A DNA stretch of 64,000 nucleotides from Xanthomonas sp. CFBP 8443 (lineage in GTDB: Bacteria > Pseudomonadota > Gammaproteobacteria > Xanthomonadales > Xanthomonadaceae): assembly GCF_025666195.1 (NCBI RefSeq), contig NZ_CP102592.1, forward strand, positions 2,046,001 through 2,110,000. Direction: 5' to 3'. Position 1 is the first letter of the stretch, and the number at the start of each line of letters is the position of its first letter. Below the pieces are notes generated by a model. That model ran no database searches, had not been told where the DNA came from, and saw only the letters and a list, made by a program, of their open reading frames with translations. Both the position numbers and the translations under genes were made by a program. Shown one piece after another: positions 16,234-28,060 of the stretch.

Positions 16234-16278
16234 GCGCGCGCTTGCGCCTGCGGCGTGCGCGTGCGAGGATGCGCGCCG

Positions 16279-16380
16279 ATGAAAGCGAACCTGCCCCAGC
16301 ACGATCTCAGCGCCGCCCGCATGGCCTCGGGCATGACGTCGCGCGCGCGCCGACCGGAATCCCACATCCTGGCTGGGTAA
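16279..16380 (+). CDS. Candidate arginine leader peptide of the arg operon
   Basis: A 33-codon open frame with ATG at 16279, GAGGA at 16265-16269 as ribosome site, and TAA at 16378. It encodes MKANLPQHDLSAARM... and ends ...TSRARRPESHILAG. Three of four consecutive codons (16342-16353: CGC, GCG, CGC, CGA) are for Arg, with another CGC at 16318. The stop codon lies inside GGCTGGGT-AA, which can pair with the left arm of the terminator hairpin 30 bases downstream. This is the layout of a ribosome-stalling leader peptide as in trp or his operons. No conservation data are available to me, so it remains a candidate. Confidence 0.5.
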   Translation: MKANLPQHDLSAARMASGMTSRARRPESHILAG

Positions 16381-16433
16381 CCGGAGCGCTGTGCCGTTCG
16401 TTCTGAAAACCCAGCCCGAGGCTGGGTTTTTTC
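16371..16433 (+). promoter_or_regulatory. Candidate transcription attenuator upstream of argF'
   Basis: Three segments can pair in two ways. Segment 1 is GGCTGGGT (16371-16378), within the leader peptide's last codons and stop. Segment 2 is AACCCAGCC (16408-16416). Segment 3 is GGCTGGGTT (16420-16428). Segments 2 and 3 make an intrinsic terminator followed by T's; segments 1 and 2 make an 8-bp antiterminator. A ribosome stalled at the Arg codons (16342-16353) would leave segment 1 free and favour read-through. A ribosome that reaches the stop would cover segment 1 and favour termination. The logic fits arginine control of the operon but is inferred from pairing alone. Confidence 0.5.
16406..16433 (+). 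terminator. Rho-independent terminator hairpin between 15697 gene and argF'
   Basis: AAAACCCAGCC, a CGA loop and GGCTGGGTTTT, followed by further T's: an 11-bp stem with a T-run. It certainly looks like an intrinsic terminator. Whether it simply ends the upstream gene or attenuates the arginine operon is discussed with the leader peptide. Confidence 0.88.
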
Positions 16434-16529
16434 GTTTTCATGCCCCGGAAAGGTTTCACCCGTAAAGAACTAACCGCGCGTCCCGCGCACGCCACCGCCC
16501 GGTGGCTCCACGCAGCAAAGGATGGATCG

Positions 16530-17555
16530 ATGTCTCTGAAGCACTTCTTGAACACCCAGGACTGGAGCCGGGCCGAGCTAGATGCGCTGTTGACCCAGGC
16601 CGCGCTGTTCAAGCGCAACCGGCTGGGCAGCGAGCTGAAGGGCAAGTCGATCGCGCTGGTGTTCTTCAACCCGTCGATGCGCACCCGCACCAGCTTCGAG
16701 CTGGGCGCGTTCCAGCTGGGCGGGCATGCGGTGGTGCTGCAGCCGGGCAAGGACGCCTGGCCGATCGAATTCGAGCTGGGCACGGTGATGGACGGCGACA
16801 CCGAGGAGCACATCGCCGAGGTGGCGCGGGTGCTGGGCCGTTACGTCGACCTGATCGGGGTGCGCGCGTTCCCGAAGTTCGTGGACTGGTCCAAGGACCG
16901 CGAGGACCAGGTGCTGAAGAGCTTCGCCAAGTATTCGCCGGTGCCGGTGATCAACATGGAGACCATCACCCATCCGTGCCAGGAGCTGGCGCACGCGCTG
17001 GCGCTGCAGGAGCATTTCGGCACCCAGGACCTGCGTGGCAAGAAGTACGTGCTGACCTGGACCTACCACCCCAAGCCGCTGAACACCGCGGTGGCCAATT
17101 CGGCGCTGACCATCGCCACCCGGCTGGGCATGGACGTGACCCTGCTGTGCCCGACCCCGGACTACGTGCTGGACGAACGCTACATGGGCTGGGCGGCGCA
17201 GAACGTGGCCGAGAGCGGCGGCTCGCTGACCGTCAGCCACGACACCGACAGCGCCTACGCCGGCGCCGACGTGGTCTATGCCAAGAGCTGGGGCGCGCTG
17301 CCGTTCTTCGGCAACTGGGCCCCGGAGAAGCCGATCCGCGACCAGTACCAGCACTTCATCGTCGACGAGCGCAAGATGGCGCTGACCAACAACGGCGTGT
17401 TCTCGCACTGCCTGCCGCTGCGCCGCAACGTCAAGGCCACCGACGCGGTGATGGATTCGCCCAACTGCATCGCCATCGACGAGGCCGAGAACCGGCTGCA
17501 TGTGCAGAAGGCGATCATGGCGGCCCTGGTGGGCCAGGGCCGCCGGGATTCGTGA
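16530..17555 (+). CDS. argF': N-acetylornithine carbamoyltransferase (AOTCase)
   Basis: A 341-residue transcarbamylase that turns N-acetylornithine and carbamoyl phosphate into N-acetylcitrulline, replacing the ornithine route. The ATG at 16530 has AAAGGA eight bases upstream. The carbamoyl phosphate loop reads PSMRTRTSFELGAF, and HPCQELAHALALQEHFG and HCLPLRRNVKATDAVMD are conserved. The S-M-R-T-R loop and the long FGTQDLRGKKYVLTWTYHPKP block are those of the Xanthomonas AOTCase and not of ordinary ornithine transcarbamylase. The last codons (GRRDS) are encoded by a short-period repeat whose other arm encodes the ArgG N-terminus. First gene of the arginine operon, behind the attenuator candidate. 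Confidence 0.93.
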   Translation: MSLKHFLNTQDWSRAELDALLTQAALFKRNRLGSELKGKSIALVFFNPSMRTRTSFELGAFQLGGHAVVLQPGKDAWPIEFELGTVMDGDTEEHIAEVARVLGRYVDLIGVRAFPKFVDWSKDREDQVLKSFAKYSPVPVINMETITHPCQELAHALALQEHFGTQDLRGKKYVLTWTYHPKPLNTAVANSALTIATRLGMDVTLLCPTPDYVLDERYMGWAAQNVAESGGSLTVSHDTDSAYAGADVVYAKSWGALPFFGNWAPEKPIRDQYQHFIVDERKMALTNNGVFSHCLPLRRNVKATDAVMDSPNCIAIDEAENRLHVQKAIMAALVGQGRRDS

Positions 17556-17670
17556 TTCGGGATTGGGGATTCGCAACGGCGACCTCCCTTCCCGCTCTTA
17601 ATTTAGTCAACCGCAGAGAGACTCCCCCATGTCGCAGCAAACCGCTTCTACGAATCCCGAATCCCCAATC
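17544..17670. repeat. Short-period inverted repeat pair spanning argF' end and argG start
   Basis: The left arm (17544-17573) is a run of near-7-bp units GATTCGG/GATTGGG. The right arm (17650-17670) is the reverse complement, CGAATCCCGAATCCCCAATC. Thirteen bases match exactly (GATTGGGGATTCG). The left arm encodes the last ArgF' codons and the right arm encodes ArgG residues about 8-14. The argG ribosome site and start codon lie in the loop between them. Confidence 0.85.
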
Positions 17671-18870
17671 TCCACTCCCGGCACCAAGGACATCGTGCTG
17701 GCCTTCTCCGGCGGCCTGGACACCAGCTTCTGCATTCCCTATCTGCAGGACAAGGGCTACGCCGTGCACACGGTGTTCGCCGACACCGGCGGGGTGGACG
17801 ACGAGGAGCGCGACTTCATCGAGAAGCGCGCCGCCGAGCTGGGCGCGGCCAGCCACGTCACCGTCGATGGCGGCCCGGCGATCTGGAGCGGTTTCGTCAA
17901 GCCGTTCGTGTGGGCCGGCGAGGGCTACCAGGGCCAGTACCCGTTGCTGGTGTCCGACCGCTACCTGATCGTCGATGCCGCGCTCAAGCGCGCCGACGAG
18001 CTGGGCACCAAGGTCATCGCGCACGGCTGCACCGGCATGGGCAACGACCAGGTGCGCTTCGACCTGGCGGTCAAGGCGCTGGGCGATTACGAGATCGTGG
18101 CGCCGATCCGCGAGATCCAGAAGGAGCACACCCAGACCCGCGCCTACGAGCAGAAGTACCTGGAAGAGCGCGGCTTCGGCGTGCGCGCCAAGCAGAAGGC
18201 CTACACGATCAACGAGAACCTGCTAGGCGTGACCATGTCCGGCGGCGAGATCGACCGCTGGGAAGCGCCGGGCGAGGGCACCCGCGGCTGGTGCGCGCCG
18301 CGCAGCGCATGGCCGATCGAGCCGCTGACGGTGACGGTGAAGTTCGAGCACGGCGAAGCGGTGGCGGTGGACGGCAAGCCGCTGGAAGGCGCCAAGCTGC
18401 TGGCCAAGCTCAACAAGCTGTTCGCCCCGTACGGCGTGGGCCGCGGCATGTACACCGGCGACACCGTGATCGGGCTGAAGGGCCGCATCGTGTTCGAGGC
18501 GCCGGGCCTGATCGCGCTGCTGGCCGCGCACCGCGCGCTGGAAGACGCGGTGCTGACCAAGCAGCAGAACCGCTTCAAGCCGGACGTGGCGCGCAAGTGG
18601 GTGGAGCTGGTCTACGAAGGCTTCTATCACGATCCGTTGAAGACCGACCTGGAGGCGTTCCTGGATTCCTCGCAGGCCAAGGTCAACGGCGAGGTGACGC
18701 TGGAGACCCGCGGCGGCCGCGTCGATGCGGTGGCGGTGAAGTCGCCGCACCTGCTCAACGCCAAGGGCGCGACCTATGCGCAGTCGGCGGACTGGGGCGT
18801 GGCCGAGGCGGAAGGCTTCATCAAGCTGTTCGGGATGAGCTCGACGTTGTACGCCCAGGTCAATCGCTGA
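17629..18870 (+). CDS. argG: Argininosuccinate synthase
   Basis: A 413-residue enzyme joining citrulline (here made by deacetylation of acetylcitrulline) and aspartate with ATP. The ATP-binding P-loop is [16 protein letters not shown] (from residue 24), followed by [15 protein letters not shown] and the C-terminal block. The only usable start is the ATG at 17629, giving a 20-residue N-terminal extension before [10 protein letters not shown]. Residues 8-15 of it (TNPESPIS) are encoded by one arm of the inverted repeat shared with the end of argF'. It lies 73 bases after argF'. Function is secure from the P-loop and overall length. Confidence 0.96.
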
Positions 18871-18878
18871 AGCTCAAA

Positions 18879-19108
18879 GCCCCTCTCCCGTCGGGAGAGG
18901 GGTTGGGGGCGCCGCAGGAAAGCTTCGGGACCCTCATGATGAACGCGTCGCCACGCGCCAGCCATGGGGAACCACTGCAACGCCTACTTCCATTGTTCTC
19001 CATACGGGCGCGTGGCGACGCGTTCGTCCCGGTTGCTTCTCGAAATTTCTTGAGGCGCCCCTCGTCCGCCCCTTCGGGGCACCTTCTCCCGGTGGGAGAA
19101 GGATCTGT
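18879..19108. repeat. Dispersed palindromic intergenic element with nested inverted repeat
   Basis: The left end is CCCCTCTCCCGTCGGGAGAG followed by GGGTTGGGGGC. The right end is CCTCGTCCGCCCCTTCGGGG with ACCTTCTCCCGGTGGGAGAAGG. Inside is a second inverted pair, GAACGCGTCGCCACGCGCC (18942-18960) and GGCGCGTGGCGACGCGTTC (about 19008-19026). Same family as 13499-13895. It fills most of the argG-GNAT gap of 250 bases and contains no gene. Confidence 0.8.
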
Positions 19109-19120
19109 TGCGATTAATCC

Positions 19121-19564
19121 ATGAGCCAACTGCGCATCAGCACCGACAAGCAGGACCTGGATCTGCCGTTGATCCATCGCTTCCTCAGCGAGCAGGCCTA
19201 TTGGTGCCTGGGCATCCCACTGGACACGGTGCAGCGGGCGATCGCCGGTTCGCTGTGCTTCGGCGGCCATGTCGCCGGCGCGGGACAGGTGGCGTTCGCA
19301 CGGGCGATCACCGACGGCGCGACCTTCGCCTACCTGGCCGATGTGTTCGTGCTCGACGCCTACCGCGGCCGCGGCTACGGCAAGCAGCTGGTCGCCGCGG
19401 TGATGGCGCATCCGCAGCTGCAGGGGCTGCGCCGTTTCATGCTCGCCACTTCCGACGCGCATGCGCTGTACGCCCAGCATGGCTTCGCCGCGCCGGCGCG
19501 TCCGCAGTCGCTGATGGAAATCGCCCATCCCGACCTCTACCGCACCAGCACCCCGGCTGCCTGA
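19121..19564 (+). CDS. GNAT-family N-acetyltransferase
   Basis: A 147-residue acetyltransferase of the GNAT fold with the acetyl-CoA loop YRGRGYGKQLVAAV (about residues 84-97) preceded by the strand ADVFVLD. The C-terminal LYAQHGFAAP block is the usual final strand-turn. No ribosome site stands out because the repeat element ends just before it. It lies between argG and argE' in an operon that uses acetylated intermediates, so an arginine-related substrate is possible. It is much shorter than ArgA-type synthases and the NAGS activity here most likely belongs to ArgB. Confidence 0.8.
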   Translation: MSQLRISTDKQDLDLPLIHRFLSEQAYWCLGIPLDTVQRAIAGSLCFGGHVAGAGQVAFARAITDGATFAYLADVFVLDAYRGRGYGKQLVAAVMAHPQLQGLRRFMLATSDAHALYAQHGFAAPARPQSLMEIAHPDLYRTSTPAA

Positions 19565-19569
19565 CCGCC

Positions 19570-20667
19570 ATGACCGATCTGCTCGAACCCACCCTCGCGC
19601 ACCTGCAGCAGCTGGTGTCCTTCGACACCCGCAATCCGCCGCGCGCGATCGGCACCGATGGCATCTTCGACTATCTGCGCGCGCAGCTGCCCGGGTTCCA
19701 GGTCGAGGTCATCGATCACGGCGCCGGTGCGGTCAGCCTGTACGCGGTGCGCGGCACGCCGAAGTATCTGTTCAACGTGCACCTGGACACGGTGCCGGAT
19801 TCGCCGCACTGGAGCGCCGACCCGCACGTCATGCGCCGCAGCGACGACCGCGTGGTCGGCCTGGGCGTGTGCGACATCAAGGGCGCGGCCGCGGCGCTGC
19901 TGGCCGCGGCCAATGCCGGCGACGGCGATGCCGCGTTCCTGTTCTCCAGCGACGAGGAGGCCAACGATCCGCGCTGCATCGCCGCGTTCCTGGCGCGCGC
20001 CATTCCCTACGAAGCGGTGCTGGTGGCCGAACCGACCATGGGCGAGGCGGTGTTGGCGCACCGCGGCATCAGTTCGGTGCTGATGCGCTTCGCCGGCCGC
20101 GCCGGGCATGCGTCGGGCAAGCAGGATCCGTCGGCCAGCGCGCTGCACCAGGCGATGCGCTGGGGCGCGCGGGCGCTGGACCATGTCGAGACGCTGGCGC
20201 ATGCGCGCTTCGGCGGCCTGACCGGGTTGCGCTTCAACATCGGCCGGGTCGAAGGCGGCATCAAGGCCAACATGATCGCGCCGGCGGCCGAGCTGCGTTT
20301 CGGCTTCCGGCCGCTGCCGTCGATGGACGTGGATGCGCTGCTGGCGACCTTCGCCGGTTTCGCCGATCCGGCCGCCGCGCAGTTCGAGGAGACCTTCCGC
20401 GGGCCGAGCCTGCCGAGCGGGGACATCGCGCACGCCGAGGACAAGCGCCTGGCCGCGCGCGACGTCGCCGATGCGCTGCACCTGCCGATCGGCAATGCGG
20501 TGGATTTCTGGACCGAAGCCTCGCTGTTCTCGGCCGGCGGCTACATCGCCCTGGTCTACGGCCCGGGCGACATCGCTCAGGCGCATACGGCCGACGAGTT
20601 CGTGACGCTGGAGCAACTGCAGCGTTACGCGACGTCGGTGGACCGCATCATCAACGGCGCGCGCTGA
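19570..20667 (+). CDS. argE': N-acetylcitrulline deacetylase (ArgE-like M20 peptidase)
   Basis: A 365-residue zinc hydrolase of the M20 family removing the acetyl group from N-acetylcitrulline, the partner step to AOTCase. The metal and catalytic residues are visible: [11 protein letters not shown] (His, Asp), [12 protein letters not shown] (bridging Asp), SSDEEANDP (catalytic Glu pair), AEPTMGEAV, and a late His in [13 protein letters not shown]. The dimerisation domain occupies about residues 165-275. The ATG at 19570 is six bases after the GNAT stop. Its sequence alone would fit acetylornithine deacetylase; acetylcitrulline is inferred from AOTCase in the same operon. Confidence 0.9.
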
Positions 20668-20752
20668 GCCGCGCTTCGTCCCGTTCCTGGCCCGCGCCGT
20701 TGGGCTGCCCACACCCGTTCATCTGGATTCTTTCGGAACTGCCATCGCCGCC

Positions 20753-22069
20753 ATGCACGCCAACAAGCAAACCCGCCAGACCATCGTCCGCCTGCTCTCG
20801 AGCATGGCCAGCGCCAAGGAGATCAGCCAGTACCTCAAGCGCTTCTCGCAGCTGGACGCCAAGCGCTTCGCCGTGGTCAAGGTCGGCGGCGCGGTGCTGC
20901 GCGACGACCTGGAGGCGCTGACCTCGTCGCTGTCGTTCCTGCAGGAAGTCGGGCTGACACCGATCGTGCTGCACGGCGCCGGTCCGCAGCTGGACGCGGA
21001 ACTGGCGGCGGCCGGGATCGAGAAGCAGACCGTCAACGGCCTGCGCGTGACCTCGCCCGAAGCGCTGGCGATCGTGCGCAAGGTGTTCCAGGCCTCCAAC
21101 CTCAAGCTGGTCGAGGCGCTGCAGCAGAACGGCGCGCGCGCCACCTCGATCACCGGCGGGGTGTTCGAGGCGCAGTACCTGGACCGCGACACCTACGGCC
21201 TGGTCGGCGAGGTCAAGGCGGTCAACCTGGCGCCGATCGAGGCCAGCCTGCAGGCCGGCTCGATCCCGGTGATCACCAGCCTGGGCGAAACCCCGAGCGG
21301 GCAGATCCTCAACATCAACGCCGATTTCGCCGCCAACGAACTGGTGCAGGAACTGCAGCCGTACAAGATCATCTTCCTCACCGGCACCGGCGGACTGCTC
21401 GACGAGCAGGGCAGGGTGATCGACTCGATCAACCTGTCCACCGAATACGACACCCTGATGCAGCAGCCGTGGATCAACGGCGGCATGCGAGTCAAGATCG
21501 AGCAGATCAAGGACCTGCTGGACCGGCTGCCGCTGGAGTCGTCGGTGTCGATCACGCGCCCGGCCGACCTGGCCAAGGAGCTGTTCACCCACAAGGGCTC
21601 GGGCACGCTGGTGCGGCGCGGCGAGAAGGTGCTGCGCGCCACGGCGTGGAGCGAGCTGGATACGCCGCGGCTGCAGTCGCTGATCGAATCCAGCTTCGGC
21701 CGCACCCTGGTGCCGGACTATTTCGACAAGACCCGGCTGCTGCGCGCCTATGTCAGCGAGAACTACCGCGCCGCAGTGATCCTCACCGACGAGGGTGGCT
21801 ACACCTACCTGGACAAGTTCGCGGTGCTCGACGACGCGCAGGGCGAGGGCCTGGGCCGCGCGGTGTGGAACGTGATGCGCGAGGAGACCCCGCAGCTGTT
21901 CTGGCGTTCGCGCCACAACAACCAGGTCAACATCTTCTACTACGCCGAGTCCGACGGCTGCTTCAAGCAGGAGAAGTGGAAGGTGTTCTGGTACGGGCTG
22001 GAGGACTTCGAGCAGATCCAGCACTGCGTGGCGCATTGCGCCACCCGCACGCCGACCCTGCTGGGCTGA
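20753..22069 (+). CDS. argB: Bifunctional N-acetylglutamate synthase/kinase
   Basis: A 438-residue fusion performing the first two steps of arginine synthesis. Residues 1-285 are an amino acid kinase domain with [36 protein letters not shown] and [11 protein letters not shown]. Residues 290-436 form a GNAT (vertebrate-type NAGS) domain ending in [18 protein letters not shown] followed by WYGLED. This architecture is known in Xanthomonas and relatives and resembles animal NAGS more than E. coli ArgA. Arginine feedback on the kinase domain is expected from the family. The start at 20753 gives the normal N-terminal helix used in tetramer formation. Confidence 0.94.
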
Positions 22070-22074
22070 GCGCG

Positions 22075-22686
22075 ATGAGCCTGGAATTGCTGCCTGCGCT
22101 GTGGCGCGAGGTGCCGACTCTGCAGGGCCTGCATGCGTCGCTGGAGCCGTTGCAGGCCGCGCATGCCGACGCCTTGCGCACGGCGCTGCACGGCAGCGGC
22201 CTGGAGCGGCTTTGGTACACCAGCGTGCCGGCGCCGGACAAGGTCGAGGGCTACGTGGCCGCCGCGCTGGACGCGCAGGCGCAGGGCCGCGTGCTGCCGT
22301 TCGTGGTGCGCGATACGGCCGGCACGGTGGTCGGCAGCACGCGTTTCTACGGGCTCGACGCCGAGGTGCCGACGCTGCTGATCGGCTACACCTGGTACGC
22401 GCCGCGGGTGCAGCGCAGCGGAGTCAACACCGAGGTCAAGCGCATGCTGTTGCAGTACGCGTTCGAGACCCTGCAGTGCATCAGCGTCGGCTTCGAGACC
22501 AGTTGGTTCAACCACACCTCGCGCACCGCCATCGCCCGGCTCGGCGCCAAGCAGGACGGCGTGCTGCGCAACCACAAGCGCCACGCCGACGGCACCCCGC
22601 GCGACACCGTGGTGTTCTCCATCATCGACACGGAATGGGCCGGGGTGAAACGCCACCTGCAGTTCCGCCTGGACTCGCATACATGA
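22075..22686 (+). CDS. GNAT acetyltransferase (RimJ/RimL-like), arg operon
   Basis: A 203-residue GNAT protein starting five bases after the argB stop and overlapping argC by four bases (ATGA). It has the RimJ/RimL-type pattern: [20 protein letters not shown] as the first core strands, [25 protein letters not shown] for the CoA-binding loop, and [19 protein letters not shown] with the Asn/Ser motif. The usual Q/R-x-x-G-x-G/A loop is altered (R-V-Q-R-S-G-V-N). Tight coupling between argB and argC suggests a role tied to acetylated intermediates or to modification of a pathway enzyme, but no substrate can be named. Confidence 0.8.
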
Positions 22687-23654
22687 CTACCAAGACCTAT
22701 GGCGTCGGCATCGTCGGCGCGCGCGGCCATACCGGCGCCGAACTGATCAAGCTGGTCGCCGCGCATCCGCAGCTGCAGCTGGCGTTCGTCTCATCGCGCG
22801 AGCTGGCCGGTCAGCGCGTGGCCGAGCACAGCAGCGCCTACCAGGGCGAGCTGCGCTACGAGAACCTGGACGCCGACGCGGTCGCGGCCAAGCAGGCCGA
22901 CGCGGTGGTGCTGGCGCTGCCCAACGGCAAGGCCGCGCCCTACGTCGCCGCACTGGATGCGGCGCTGGCCGCCGATCCGGCCGCGGTCGATCCGGTCGTG
23001 GTCGACCTGTCGGCCGACTACCGCTTCGATCCGGCCTGGTACTACGGCCTGCCGGAACTGACCCGCGACCGCTACGCCGGGCAGAAGCGGATCAGCAATC
23101 CCGGCTGCTACGCCACCGCGATGCAGCTGGCGATCGCGCCGCTGCTCGACCAGCTGGCCGGCCCGCCGCAGTGCTTCGGCGTGTCCGGCTATTCCGGCGC
23201 CGGCACCACGCCGTCGGACAAGAACAACCCGGAGCTGCTGCGCGACAACCTGATGCCGTACGCACTGACCGACCACATGCACGAGCGCGAAGTGTCCGCG
23301 CAACTGGGCGTGCCGGTGGAGTTCATGCCGCACGTGGCGGCGCATTTCCGCGGCATCACCATGACCGTGAACCTGTGGCTGCAGCAACCGCTGGCGCTGG
23401 ACGCGATCCAGCGCCGCTACCGCGAGCGCTACGCCGGCGAACCGCTGATCGAGGTACTCGACGAAGCGCCATGGGTCAGCCGCATCGCCGGCAGGCACGG
23501 CGTGCAGATCGGCGGCTTCACCCTGGCCCCGGGCAACAAGCGCCTGGTGCTGGTGGCGACCCTGGACAACCTGCTCAAGGGCGCGGCGACGCAGGCGATG
23601 CAGAATCTGAACCTGGCGCTCGGCTTGGACGAGCTGACCGCGATCCCGCTGTGA
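22683..23654 (+). CDS. argC: N-acetyl-gamma-glutamyl-phosphate reductase
   Basis: A 323-residue NADPH-dependent reductase forming N-acetylglutamate semialdehyde. The Rossmann start [20 protein letters not shown], the catalytic cysteine in [16 protein letters not shown] (near residue 143) and [20 protein letters not shown] are diagnostic. The ATG at 22683 overlaps the GNAT stop, fixing the start. The next gene is separated by a 107-base GC-rich hairpin region. Confidence 0.95.
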
Positions 23655-23657
23655 TCA

Positions 23658-23748
23658 ACGGGACCGGGGACCGGGGACCGGGGACCCGGAAGAGCAAGAG
23701 CACGCGCTCCTGCTTTTCCGGGTCCCCGGTCCCGGGTCCCCGGTCCCC
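23658..23748. repeat. Long inverted repeat of GGGGACC units between argC and argH
   Basis: The left arm 23659-23689 has four GGGACCG/GGGGACC units, and the right arm 23718-23748 has the reverse complement GGTCCCCGGTCCC units. The 28-base spacer (AGAGCAAGAG... CTCCTGCTTTT) is itself partly self-complementary. The transcript could fold almost entirely into one hairpin of about 90 bases immediately before the argH ribosome site. No T-run follows, so it is not an ordinary terminator. Confidence 0.88.
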
Positions 23749-23761
23749 ATAAGGACCCCCA

Positions 23762-25060
23762 ATGACCAACCTGCTCTGGCAAAAACCCGGCGTCGCCGTC
23801 GACGCCAAGATCCAGGCCTTCCTGGCCGGCGACGACGTGATCCTGGACCGCGAGTTCTTCCTGCACGACATCGCCGCCAGCGGCGCGCATGCCGAAGGCC
23901 TGCAGCGCATCGGCATCCTGTCGGCCGACGAACTGGCCGGGCTGCAGCGCGAGCTGGCGATCCTGGCCGAGGATTTCCGCAGCGGCGCGTTCGTGCTCGA
24001 CGAGCGTTTCGAGGACGGCCATTCGGCCATCGAGGCGCGGCTGACCGAGCGCCTGGGCGATGCCGGCCGCAAGATCCACACCGGGCGCAGCCGCAACGAC
24101 CAGATCCTGGTCGCCACCCGGCTGTGGCTGAAGGAACGGCTGGCGCAACTGGCGCAGCTGAGCCGCGAGATCGCCAAGGTCGCGCTGGACCGCGCGCAGG
24201 CCGAGCAGGCGCTGCCGCTGCCGGGCTACACCCATATCCAGCGTGCCGTGGTGTCCTCGGCCGGGATGTGGTGGGCGGGCTGGGCCGAAGCCTTCATCGA
24301 CGATGCGATCCGCGCCAGCGACACGTTGCGCCTGATCGACGCCAATCCGCTCGGCACCGCCGCCGGCTACGGCGTCAACCTCAAGCTCGACCGCGAACAC
24401 ACCACCGCCGCGCTCGGCTTCGCGCGCATGCAGGTGAGCCCGATCTACGCGCAGCTGTCGCGCGGCAAGTTCGAGATGGCCGCGCTGGAAGCGCTGGGCA
24501 GCGCGACCCTGGACCTGCGCCGGCTGGCCTGGGACCTGTCGCTGTTCACCAGCGGCGAGTTCGGCTTCGTCGCGTTGCCGGCGCAGTACACCACCGGCAG
24601 CTCGATCATGCCCAACAAGCGCAACCCGGACGTGATCGAACTGATGCGCGCCACCCACGCCAGCGTGGCCGCCGCGCGCACCGAGATAGAGCAGTTGCTG
24701 TCGCTGCCGTCCGGCTACCACCGCGACCTGCAGAGCAGCAAGGGCGCGATCTTCCACGGCTTCGGCCGCGGCCTGGCCGCGCTGGAGCTGCTGCCGGCAT
24801 TGCTGGCCAACCTGGAGTGGCGCGAAGACAGGCTGCGCGCGGCGATCGACTCGGGCATGTACGCCACCGACGTCGCGGTCGAAGCGGCGCTGGCCGGCGT
24901 GCCGTTCCGCGAGGCCTACCAGGCCGCCGCCGCCGCGTCGGACAGCGCAGGGCAGGGCCGCACGCCGGAAGGCAGCCTGGCCGCGCGGGTTTCGCCCGGC
25001 GCCGCCGCCGACCTGCGCCTGGTCGAACTGCAGGCGCGCTGGCAGGCGCTGGACGCTTGA
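23762..25060 (+). CDS. argH: Argininosuccinate lyase
   Basis: A 432-residue member of the fumarase/aspartase superfamily that splits argininosuccinate into arginine and fumarate. [16 protein letters not shown] and the flexible signature loop [16 protein letters not shown] (serine nucleophile near residue 280) are present, with [16 protein letters not shown] carrying the substrate-binding His. The length is a little short of E. coli ArgH but typical for Xanthomonas. It lies behind the GC hairpin and closes the arginine pathway. Confidence 0.96.
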
Positions 25061-25066
25061 TCCATC

Positions 25067-25132
25067 CTGTAGGAGGGCTTCAGCCCCAACGCGGTTACCG
25101 GTAAGGCGTCGCGGCTGAAGCCCCTCCTGCAA
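25067..25132. repeat. REP-like inverted pair after argH
   Basis: TGTAGGAGGGCTTCAGCCCC (25069-25088) and GTCGCGGCTGAAGCCCCTCC (25109-25128) face each other across a 20-base spacer, forming a potential hairpin between argH and the yciI-like gene. Members of the same family as 3983-4222, in the 'GGGCTTCAGCCCC' variant. Confidence 0.8.
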
Positions 25133-25200
25133 AGAGCGTTCGCCGCGGTGCGCGGCGAAAATGCCGAACATTCGAACCGATGCACAAGGAACACCGTAGG

Positions 25201-25458
25201 ATGAAGCACTACCTGGTTCTGGCGATGCGCAAACCGAGTTTCGACGAGGCCGTGGTCGCCCCGCACCTGGCCTTCCTCGACGCACTGCGCGAGCGCGGCC
25301 TGCTGGCGCTGACCGGCGGTTTCAGCGACCGCAGCGGCGGCGCCTACCTGCTGCAGGGCGTGGACGACCTGGCACAGGCGCAGGCGATCGTGGCGGCCGA
25401 TCCGCTGGCGATCCACGACTGCTCCGAACTCACCGTCCACGAATGGAACACGCGCTGA
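25201..25458 (+). CDS. YciI-like protein
   Basis: An 85-residue protein of the YCII-related (dimeric ferredoxin-like alpha/beta) fold. Start at the ATG 25201 (MKHYLVLAMRKPSFDEAVV); the ATG at 25180 would add seven residues of no family resemblance. The conserved elements are the H in PHLAFLDAL, the GGFSDRSGGAYLL strand and ADPLAIHDCSELTVHEW, where the Asp-His pair is typical. The family includes a 5-chloro-hydroxyhydroquinone dehydrochlorinase-related domain, but bacterial YciI function is unsettled. It lies 4 bases before proB, so it is part of the same transcript. Confidence 0.85.
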   Translation: MKHYLVLAMRKPSFDEAVVAPHLAFLDALRERGLLALTGGFSDRSGGAYLLQGVDDLAQAQAIVAADPLAIHDCSELTVHEWNTR

Positions 25459-25462
25459 GCCC

Positions 25463-26647
25463 ATGACCCCGCAGACGCCATCGCCCTTCGCCGAGCAACG
25501 CCTGCCGCCGTGGCGGCGCGCGGTGCTCAAGGTCGGCAGCAGCCTGCTCGCCGCCGACGGCGGTGGCGGGCTGTCGCCGCGCTTCGCGCTGGGGCTGGCG
25601 CAGTTCGTCTCCGCCAACCTGGCGGCCGGGCGCGAACTGGTGATCGTGTCCTCCGGCGCGGTCGCCGCCGGCCGCGCGATTCTGCCGCGCGCCGCCGAAG
25701 CCGGCGCGGCGATCGCCGCGCGGCAGGCGCTGGCCGCGCTCGGCCAGGCGCAGCTGATCGCGCTGTGGCAGCGTTTCTTCGAGCGCCCGGTGGCGCAGGT
25801 GCTGCTGACCCACGACGACCTGCGCAACCGCCGCCGCTACCTCAACGCGCGCGCCACCCTGGGCGAACTGCTGCGGCTGGGCGCGCTGCCGGTGGTCAAC
25901 GAGAACGACACCGTGTCGGTGGACGAACTCAAGCTCGGCGACAACGACAACCTGGCCGCGATCGTCGCCGCGCTGGTCGATGCCGACGCGCTGTTCATCG
26001 CCACCGACATCGACGGCCTGTACACCGCCGACCCGCGCAGCGATCCGCACGCGCAGCCGCTGGACGAGGTGACCGAACTGACCGCGGCGGTGCTGGCGAT
26101 GGCCGGCGGCAGCGGCAGCAGCGTCGGCACCGGCGGCATGCGCACCAAGCTGGAGGCCGCGGCCAGGGCCGGCGCCGCCGGCATCGAGACCTACCTGTTC
26201 AACGGCCGCAGCGCCGAGGTGGTGCGCGGCCTGGCCCAGGACCGCCTGCGCGGCACCCGCATCCATCCCGCGCGCACCCGCATCGCCGCGCGCAAGTACT
26301 GGCTGCGGCAGGTGCCGGTCGAGCCCGGCGCGATCCTGGTCGACGCCGGCGCCGCCGCCGCGCTGGCCGACAGGGGCGCCTCGCTGCTGCCTGGCGGCGT
26401 GGTCGGTGCCGAAGGCGATTTCCGCCGCGGCGACATGGTCGAAGTGCGCCTGCGCGACGCCGCCGGCGAACGCTGCCTGGCGCGCGGCGTCAGCCAGTAC
26501 TCGGCCGCCGACGTGCGCCGCATCGCCCGCCGCCACTCGCGCGACATCGAATCGATCCTGGGGTACAACTATGGGGAGAATGTGATTCACCGCGACGATC
26601 TGGTTGTTATTCGGGACTCGGGACTCGGGACTCGGGACTCGACGTAA
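25463..26647 (+). CDS. proB: Glutamate 5-kinase with PUA domain
   Basis: A 394-residue enzyme phosphorylating glutamate for proline synthesis. Residues 18-265 are the amino acid kinase domain (VLKVGSSLLAADGG, VIVSSGAVAAGR, PVVNENDTVSVDELKLGDNDNLAA, GTGGMRTKLEAA). Residues 285-380 are a PUA domain. The final residues after VVI ([11 protein letters not shown]) are encoded by a run of GGGACTC units, the left arm of an inverted repeat; other ProB proteins end near HRDDLV. The feedback site for proline lies in the kinase domain. proB and proA sit downstream of the arginine genes and share glutamate as precursor. Confidence 0.95.
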   Translation: MTPQTPSPFAEQRLPPWRRAVLKVGSSLLAADGGGGLSPRFALGLAQFVSANLAAGRELVIVSSGAVAAGRAILPRAAEAGAAIAARQALAALGQAQLIALWQRFFERPVAQVLLTHDDLRNRRRYLNARATLGELLRLGALPVVNENDTVSVDELKLGDNDNLAAIVAALVDADALFIATDIDGLYTADPRSDPHAQPLDEVTELTAAVLAMAGGSGSSVGTGGMRTKLEAAARAGAAGIETYLFNGRSAEVVRGLAQDRLRGTRIHPARTRIAARKYWLRQVPVEPGAILVDAGAAAALADRGASLLPGGVVGAEGDFRRGDMVEVRLRDAAGERCLARGVSQYSAADVRRIARRHSRDIESILGYNYGENVIHRDDLVVIRDSGLGTRDST

Positions 26648-26797
26648 GCGCGCGAGACCGGTGCGACGTCGCGCGGAAAAGGAATCGCGTGGCGTGCTCG
26701 CAGCGATCGCGAAAATGGCGATGCGTTCCGCTCCGACGGCTTGACAATCCCGATCGCCCGCACAGCCTTCCCGAGTCCCGAGTCCCGAGTCCCGAGC
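26611..26797. repeat. Short-period inverted repeat pair spanning proB end and proB-proA gap
   Basis: The left arm 26611-26643 has four TCGGGAC units (TCGGGACTCGGGACTCGGGA...) and lies inside the proB reading frame. The right arm 26769-26797 is the reverse complement (CCCGAGTCCCGAGTCCCGAG). The spacer of 125 bases has no gene. The unit is related to those at 17544, 45029 and 49354. Confidence 0.88.
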
Positions 26798-26812
26798 AAA
26801 CTGGAACCATCC

Positions 26813-28060
26813 ATGAGCACGATCCGATCCCAAGCCCTGCAATGCCGCGACGCCGCGCAGGCGTTGGCGCAGTTGTCCTCGGCGGCCAAGCAGGCCTTGC
26901 TGGAGGCGATGGCGGCGGCGCTGGACGCGGACGCGGAAACGATCCTCGCCGCCAATGCGCGCGACCTGGAGGCGGCGCGGGCCAGGGACGTCGGCAGCGC
27001 GATGCTGGATCGGCTGGCGCTGGACGGCACGCGCCTGGCCGGTGTCGCCGCGGCGCTGCGCGAGGTCGCGGCGCTGCCCGATCCGGTCGGCCAAGTCACC
27101 CGCGACGACGTGCGCCCGAACGGCATCCGCGTGCAGAAGGTGCGGGTGCCGCTGGGCGTGATCGCGATGATCTACGAGGCGCGCCCGAACGTCACCGCCG
27201 ACGCCGCGGCGCTGTGCATCAAGGCCGGCAACGGGGTGATCCTGCGCGGCGGCTCCGAAGCAATCCGTTCCAACACCGCCATCGCCGCGGCGCTGCGGCG
27301 CGCGCTGCGCGAGGCCGGAATCGGCGAGGACGCCCTGACCCTGGTGCAGGATCTGCGCCGCGAGACCATGCTGGAACTGCTGCAGCTCAACGACATCGTC
27401 GACCTGGCGATCCCGCGCGGCGGCGAGGGTCTGATCCGTTTCGTCGCCGAGCATGCGCGGGTGCCGGTGATCAAGCACTACAAGGGCGTGTGCCATCTGT
27501 TCGTGGACGCCTCGGCGGACCTGGACTTGGCGGTGAAGCTGCTGGTGGACGGCAAGACCACGCGTCCGGCCGCCTGCAATTCGCTGGAGACGCTGCTGGT
27601 GCACGCCGATGTCGCCGCGCGCTTCCTGCCGCTGGCGGCGCAGGCGCTGCAGCAGCGCGGGGTGGTCTTGCGCGGCGACGACGCCAGCCGCGAATTGCTG
27701 CCGGACATCGACGCGGCCAGCGATGCCGACTACGCCGCCGAATTCCTCGACCTGATCCTGGCGATCCGCGTGGTGCCGGGCCTGGACGCGGCGATCGCGC
27801 ACATCCGCCACTACGGCTCGGACCACACCGAGGTCATCGCCACCGCCGATGCGGCCAATGCCGAGGCATTCGTGCAGGCGCTGCGCGCGGCGGTGGTGAT
27901 GGTCAACGCGTCTTCGCGCTTCTCCGACGGCGGCGAGCTGGGCCTGGGCGCGGAGATCGGCATCTCCACCACGCGCCTACACGCCTACGGCCCGATGGGG
28001 CTGGAAGCGCTGACCGTGGAGCGCTTCGTGGTGCGCGGCGCGGGGCAGGTGCGGCACTGA
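26813..28060 (+). CDS. proA: Gamma-glutamyl phosphate reductase
   Basis: A 415-residue NADPH enzyme of the aldehyde dehydrogenase superfamily producing glutamate semialdehyde for proline. The ATG at 26813 is used because the frame upstream (from 26741) only translates the repeat. Key blocks: [35 protein letters not shown], the catalytic cysteine in [15 protein letters not shown] (near residue 262), and [16 protein letters not shown]. It is the last gene of the arg-pro run; the minus-strand diguanylate cyclase converges 51 bases beyond. Confidence 0.95.

Follow-up and report, generated by a model that had tools for sequence, protein, structure and literature searches.

Leader region upstream of argF'

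The window analyzed here, a 64,000-nucleotide stretch of the Xanthomonas sp. CFBP 8443 chromosome, carries on its forward strand the argF' gene (16530..17555, +) encoding N-acetylornithine carbamoyltransferase (NF003384, 648.6 bits). It is followed on the same strand by argG, a GNAT-like ORF, argE, argB, an ORF that matches no family, argC, argH, proB, and proA (17629..28060, +), and the extent of the operon within this cluster is putative. The gaps between its genes at about 17555-17620 and 26600-26760 give, when translated, repeated RIPNPESRIP-like strings, and their sequence suggests short intergenic DNA repeats.

A 33-codon reading frame precedes argF' (16279..16380, +), running from an ATG at 16279 to a TAA at 16378-16380 and encoding the peptide MKANLPQHDLSAARMASGMTSRARRPESHILAG. 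Both direct reading and the family alignment place its four codons for Arg-Ala-Arg-Arg (CGC GCG CGC CGA), the candidate sensor codons, at 16342..16353 (+). They are followed on the plus strand by region 1, the predicted 5' arm of a protector hairpin (16354..16364, with CCGG at 16354-16357 and CCCA at 16361-16364), and by region 2 (16371..16384), which consists of GGCTGGGT at 16371-16378, overlapping the stop codon, and CCGG at 16381-16384. Region 3 (16406..16416, +), the left arm of an intrinsic terminator, is able to pair with region 2 or with region 4 (16420..16432, +), which comprises the right arm and a run of six T (16427-16432). The terminator stem (16406-16416/16420-16430) has 11 perfect pairs closed by a loop of 3 nt, and a repeat search of the window recovered the leader's repeats in both inverted and direct form. 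Thus, the leader frame, the Arg codons, the intrinsic terminator and the duplicated arm GGCTGGGT all read as the original prediction, made from the DNA letters alone, had described them. The only other match to the peptide core pattern in this genome (L330) was rejected as a second leader copy because it lies inside a long coding region, putatively a glucan branching enzyme gene (read without a family test).

Correspondence to sRNA-Xoo5 and placement of a probable promoter

The leader matches the Rfam family RF02242 (Xoo5) at 16277..16400 (+) over 124 of 124 model positions, with 107.2 bits against a gathering score of 50; the only other match in the window at or above its gathering score is one tRNA elsewhere. 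Xoo5 was described in X. oryzae pv. oryzae as a 124-nt RNA, with the 5' end determined by RACE and the 3' end taken from clones, and was treated by its describers as a non-coding sRNA (PMC3039613). Northern blots showed two bands in early growth, of approximately 130 and 100 nt, of which the short one alone was seen later, and the gene following Xoo5 is listed in Table 2 of that report as PXO_00353, which Table 4 names N-acetylornithine carbamoyltransferase (PMC3039613). The same Table 4 lists the argF' and argG products as reduced in an X. oryzae sRNA-Xoo1 mutant.

The first position of the RF02242 match, which corresponds to the RACE-mapped 5' end in X. oryzae (PMC3039613), places the inferred transcription start at 16277 (+), two bases ahead of the leader AUG in the alignment to Xoo5. 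The cloned Xoo5 3' end aligns to 16400, and the terminator lies further downstream. In the case of the homologous Xoo5 RNA, the mapped 5' end contradicts a start of argF' transcription downstream of 16433, which the original prediction had named as evidence against an attenuator; a further start in that interval, besides 16277, is possible.

A putative promoter can be placed at 16242..16270 (+), with the -35 hexamer TTGCGC (16242-16247), a 17-nt spacer ending in TGC, and the -10 hexamer GAGGAT (16265-16270). When distances of 2-40 nt were scanned, 133 of 140 loci of the window's family had their best -10 box 6-10 nt ahead of the start codon; of 52 loci from other families, 14 had it at this distance and 27 at 24-28 nt. 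Among 130 distinct family upstream regions, searched for a -10 box at 6-11 nt from the start codon, the spacer was 17 nt in 123 (a length slightly favored by the score), the fourth base of the -35 hexamer was C in 127, and TGC preceded the -10 box in 115, the score favoring neither of the last two features. GAGG- or AGGA-containing hexamers occurred at the supposed ribosome site in only 40 of these 130 regions.

These results do not bear out the good ribosome site proposed earlier for the leader, since GAGGA (16265-16269) lies 5' of the inferred start and coincides with the conserved TTGC-N17-TGC-xAxxAT promoter. Given the start at 16277 and the conserved placement of the promoter, the presumed ribosome site is better explained as a -10 box, and the leader mRNA is probably leaderless in the window's family; on the same grounds, Shine-Dalgarno-driven initiation from GAGGA was set aside for this family.

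Between the terminator and argF' there is a motif resembling AAAGTTTCAnCCGCAAGAA (16449-16475). Similar motifs, usually 50-100 nt before argF', are present in 53 of 130 family loci, and narrower search patterns for this downstream element matched fewer (15 of 139 and 19 of 130). It might represent a second promoter or another signal.

Conservation of the leader peptide and its arginine codons

RF02242 matches were found in 228 of 297 genomes of the family (142 over the cut-off), representing 42 of 54 genera, and in none of 14 controls. We examined 131 of the matched loci, one per genome, and all of them carry argF' on the same 1-3 kb stretch and a leader frame. As these loci had been picked by similarity, we added a set of named loci picked by argF' alone (the best 80 of 580), which includes Xanthomonas, Stenotrophomonas, Pseudoxanthomonas, Luteimonas, Lysobacter, and others, and the leader frame is present at all 80. 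The Rfam model missed 69 of the 297 genomes; among the 20 of these that were listed, all of which were sampled, 17 carry argF', each with an MTSRARR leader (16 identified by script and L336, whose frame is longer than the others, by eye), and an argF' ortholog is absent from the remaining three. The frame and its Arg codons are conserved, a check that the original prediction had called for. The RF02242 model ends before the terminator and misses leader-bearing genomes; a revised model could describe a family of cis-regulatory leaders. One contig titled Bacillus subtilis (L269) has a Stenotrophomonas-like argF' with a leader, a probable case of contamination or mislabelling.

In the 131 family loci, Ala(-6) and the core residues Met, Ser, Arg, Ala, Arg, and Arg are invariant, and Gly, Thr, and Pro of the core are nearly so, with third codon positions varying at most of the invariant residues. 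All three Arg codons are retained in every locus. The last of them is CGA in 129 of 131 loci, and in 190 of 194 when other families are added, a set biased by having been fetched partly with the core pattern; by comparison, CGA accounts for 19 of 338 Arg codons in 12 ORFs of the window. CGU, CGC, and CGA share one inosine-bearing tRNA. From the 85 loci L132-L216, the 194-locus set leaves out 11 without argF' (other pattern matches), ten of L132-L151 (refetched under other numbers), and L213 (the same place as L043). In the near families, the non-Arg core residues show the same degree of conservation as Arg; simple codon sensing would not demand this, and it counts against reading the element as an attenuator.

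Outside the window's family, 34 genomes of the order were inspected (one per genus), yielding 25 assessable argF' loci; L321, at a contig edge, and L328, a fragment, lie outside this number. In 23 of the 25, a leader frame containing an Arg run is accompanied by a terminator-like hairpin, and the peptide is often a different one. Leaders of families f2, f3, and f12 carry MTSRARR, and those of f4, f6, f7, f9, and f10 encode other peptides with Arg runs, including NPRRRRVLQSTAG, RRLRRPRTGNRAG, GRRARRTRRPLLAG, ALRRRRRLSQRRAG, and VVRRRPRPRIYAGR. In distant families the Arg run persists while the remaining peptide differs. No leader was found at L315 (f5) and L322 (f9), and region 2 is not clearly recognizable in L316. 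Four f8 genomes gave weak or partial matches only, and three f11 genomes have a carbamoyltransferase just 39-42% identical, without a leader. In L319 (f7), part of the leader sequence occurs twice upstream of argF' with N close to the repeat, possibly an assembly artefact.

Control by the arginine repressor was also considered for the argF' cluster. Profile searches for the ArgR N-terminal and C-terminal domains (PF01316 and PF02863) gave no match in the window's genome, and each domain was found in 0 of 60 family genomes, with E. coli and other controls positive. Over the order, the N-terminal domain was found in 5 of 268 genomes, all five from f11, and the three f11 genomes inspected for a leader have none. 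The usual arginine repressor seems to be absent from Xanthomonas and its relatives, and ArgR control of the cluster was set aside because ArgR was not found in the 60 family genomes.

Predicted alternative pairing in the leader RNA

An intrinsic terminator between the leader frame and the first gene was detected by script in 191 of 194 loci, and the other three (L113, L195, and L196) have hairpins with a broken T-run. In all 191 loci with a scripted terminator, region 2 begins 26-32 nt beyond the first Arg codon (at +29 in 151). Regions 2 and 3 form six or all seven of their pairs in 186 of these loci when the offset may slide, and all seven in 159 at one fixed offset. The original prediction held that a single coincidence would hardly explain all of its elements, a judgement that agrees with the presence of the frame at 80 of 80 loci selected by argF' and with shuffled sequences, at most 5 of 100 of which matched the pairing of region 2 with the left arm in 159 of 191 loci. 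A chance arrangement was set aside because the leader is kept across the family loci, the argF'-selected loci, and the Rfam-negative genomes.

Of the pairs between regions 2 and 3, only the third varies: it is chiefly U-A within the window's family, most loci elsewhere have C-G, and each group has exceptions (TA 50, CG 19, CA 3, and TG 2 among 74 rows). For a tree-based sign test of covariation, 146 of 154 loci were labelled, of which 74 rows were kept once near-identical ones had been taken out; L029, L296, L307, L315, L316, L321, L322, and L334 were omitted because they lacked the core, a terminator recognized by the script, five pairs, or a protein match of sufficient length. Paired positions mostly changed together, but with only 1-3 pairs on supported branches the test was not significant. 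The pairing is conserved, as the original prediction had asked to see, and the compensatory changes sought with it are too few on supported branches to reach significance.

The RNA of 179 distinct loci was folded only as far as region 3. With RNA free only from +18, the antiterminator (2:3) was predicted in 177 loci, and with RNA free from the first Arg codon in 101. A ribosome at the stop codon left it in 4 of 179, a figure that mostly reflects the masking of region 2 built into this setting. The window RNA is predicted to fold into the 1:2 hairpin without a ribosome, into the 2:3 antiterminator when the Arg codons are masked (-22.4 kcal/mol), and into the terminator with a ribosome at the stop codon (-18.3). 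By prediction, a ribosome on the sensor codons frees a mutually exclusive antiterminator. Once the RNA is complete, a stalled ribosome no longer prevents the terminator from being preferred (antiterminator in 11 of 175 loci), so formation of 2:3 before region 4 exists is essential to the attenuation model.

The 1:2 hairpin is part of the minimum-energy fold in 149 of 175 loci, with a stability not unusual relative to shuffled sequences (at most 1 of 30 in 15 of 175). In 138 of 191 loci, region 2 shares its final two bases with the stop codon. In about 20 of the 191 it lies 13-26 nt ahead of the end of region 2, and there the 1:2 hairpin may do the work.

Proposed attenuation model and alternative explanations

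The sequence elements, their conservation, their capacity to pair, and a published short RNA with a matching 5' end are observed features of this leader. On comparative and structural grounds, we consider it very likely (probability about 0.9) that the element is a trp-type, ribosome-mediated transcription attenuator of the argF' cluster, which senses the charging of Arg-tRNA through its arginine codons. The conserved frame, the Arg codons, and the 2:3 pairing support this interpretation, as originally put forward, and from it we infer that the leader is translated, that the ribosome stalls, that transcription terminates, and that arginine governs the outcome.

According to this model, transcription would begin at about 16277, two bases 5' of the AUG, and a ribosome would translate the leader behind the polymerase. 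When Arg-tRNA is scarce, the ribosome would pause on Arg-Ala-Arg-Arg (16342-16353) and cover region 1 (16354-16364), so that region 2 (16371-16378) would be available to region 3 (16406-16416) while region 4 is still to be transcribed; the 2:3 structure would prevent the terminator, and the arg genes would be transcribed. When arginine is plentiful, the ribosome would reach the stop codon overlapping region 2, the 3:4 terminator would form, and termination would release a short RNA, sRNA-Xoo5. For untranslated RNA, the 1:2 hairpin and termination are predicted. The predicted terminated product of about 156 nt does not fit the Northern bands of about 130 and 100 nt or the cloned 3' end equivalent to 16400 (PMC3039613) unless the RNA is processed, and our guess is that processing takes place 5' of the terminator stem.

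The near-invariant residues surrounding the Arg codons in the near families (Ala, Gly, Met, Thr, Ser, and Pro) would also be expected of a sequence-specific arrest peptide, in which GMTSRARRP stalls the ribosome on a small molecule rather than on a lack of Arg-tRNA, and Arg-Leu-Arg leader motifs are reported to stall ribosomes with antibiotics (PMC8632094; its accessible text deals with cysteine and other leader motifs and mentions neither argF nor Xanthomonas). However, the core is lost in f4, f6, f7, f9, and f10 while Arg runs persist, and a stall caused by abundant arginine would turn the biosynthetic genes on, presumably the wrong sense for this geometry, which makes an arrest peptide of this kind highly unlikely. 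A combination of both principles is conceivable but unlikely. The fixed GMTSRARRP core of the Xanthomonas family and its nearest relatives might act as a hybrid switch, in which the rare CGA codon and contacts made by the nascent chain would reinforce the stall; three Arg codons would then be enough, where several remoter families have longer runs. The released leaderless RNA (Xoo5) and the peptide might also act in trans, as has been reported for rnTrpL and peTrpL.

There is a very slight chance that Xoo5 is an independent non-coding gene for a trans-acting sRNA that merely adjoins argF'. The discrete Northern bands (PMC3039613) fit such a gene, and a small RNA could act in trans alongside attenuation, a role that is possible for Xoo5; its reading frame, however, is preserved despite varying third positions, its position ahead of argF' is constant, and the terminator left arm is complementary to region 2. 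Control of the terminator by a riboswitch or an RNA-binding protein, with the leader frame incidental, is hardly credible: alternative folds are predicted to be possible without a ribosome, but region 2 keeps a fixed spacing from the Arg codons, Arg runs recur in leaders of differing sequence, and the tRNA is the sole additional Rfam match of the window at or above gathering score.

Comparison with known regulatory systems

The original prediction knew of no leader-peptide attenuation of such an arginine operon. We found no intrinsic-terminator attenuator for arginine synthesis in searches of an open-access library, but the RNA itself had been catalogued as Xoo5, and arginine is sensed through the two Arg codons of orf34 at Salmonella speF (PMC6386406). 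Xoo5 is mentioned along with Rfam in two papers of that library, one of which merely lists it as an entry. A description of ArgR regulons (PMC5343134) does not contain the word Xanthomonadales in the text available, and argF, argG, and arginine are absent from the main text of PMC2965389. The RNA is the already catalogued sRNA Xoo5, matching the whole model of RF02242 and having the same neighbour argF', and our reading of it as an arginine attenuator differs from the published non-coding one (PMC3039613). If correct, this reading would give the orphan Rfam family Xoo5 a mechanism and a target and would account for the control of arginine synthesis in bacteria of the order without ArgR. The long Arg runs of some families and the three Arg codons within a fixed peptide of others open the relative contributions of codon sensing and nascent-peptide sensing to testing.

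At Salmonella speF, as proposed here, arginine is sensed by a ribosome that pauses on consecutive Arg codons in a short, conserved upstream frame and thereby alters the folding of the RNA, but speF is a polyamine gene and its control involves Rho-dependent termination and RNase G-dependent decay rather than arginine synthesis and an intrinsic terminator (PMC6386406). Attenuation and a leader peptide have also been discussed for Pseudomonas carA, which feeds arginine synthesis; for this different gene, however, attenuation is ascribed to pyrimidines, and arginine acts at transcription initiation (PMC4997734). The leaderless attenuator RNA rnTrpL of Sinorhizobium meliloti likewise starts at the leader AUG and was detected as a small RNA, but it responds to tryptophan, and trans action of the RNA and of the peptide peTrpL has been reported there (PMC7298713). 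With the trp- and his-type attenuators in general, the argF' leader shares a short frame containing codons for the product amino acid, an antiterminator competing with an intrinsic terminator, and a stop codon at region 2 (PMC7298713), whereas it would differ from them in sensing arginine, in having only three adjacent or nearly adjacent Arg codons within a conserved peptide core, and in being probably leaderless.
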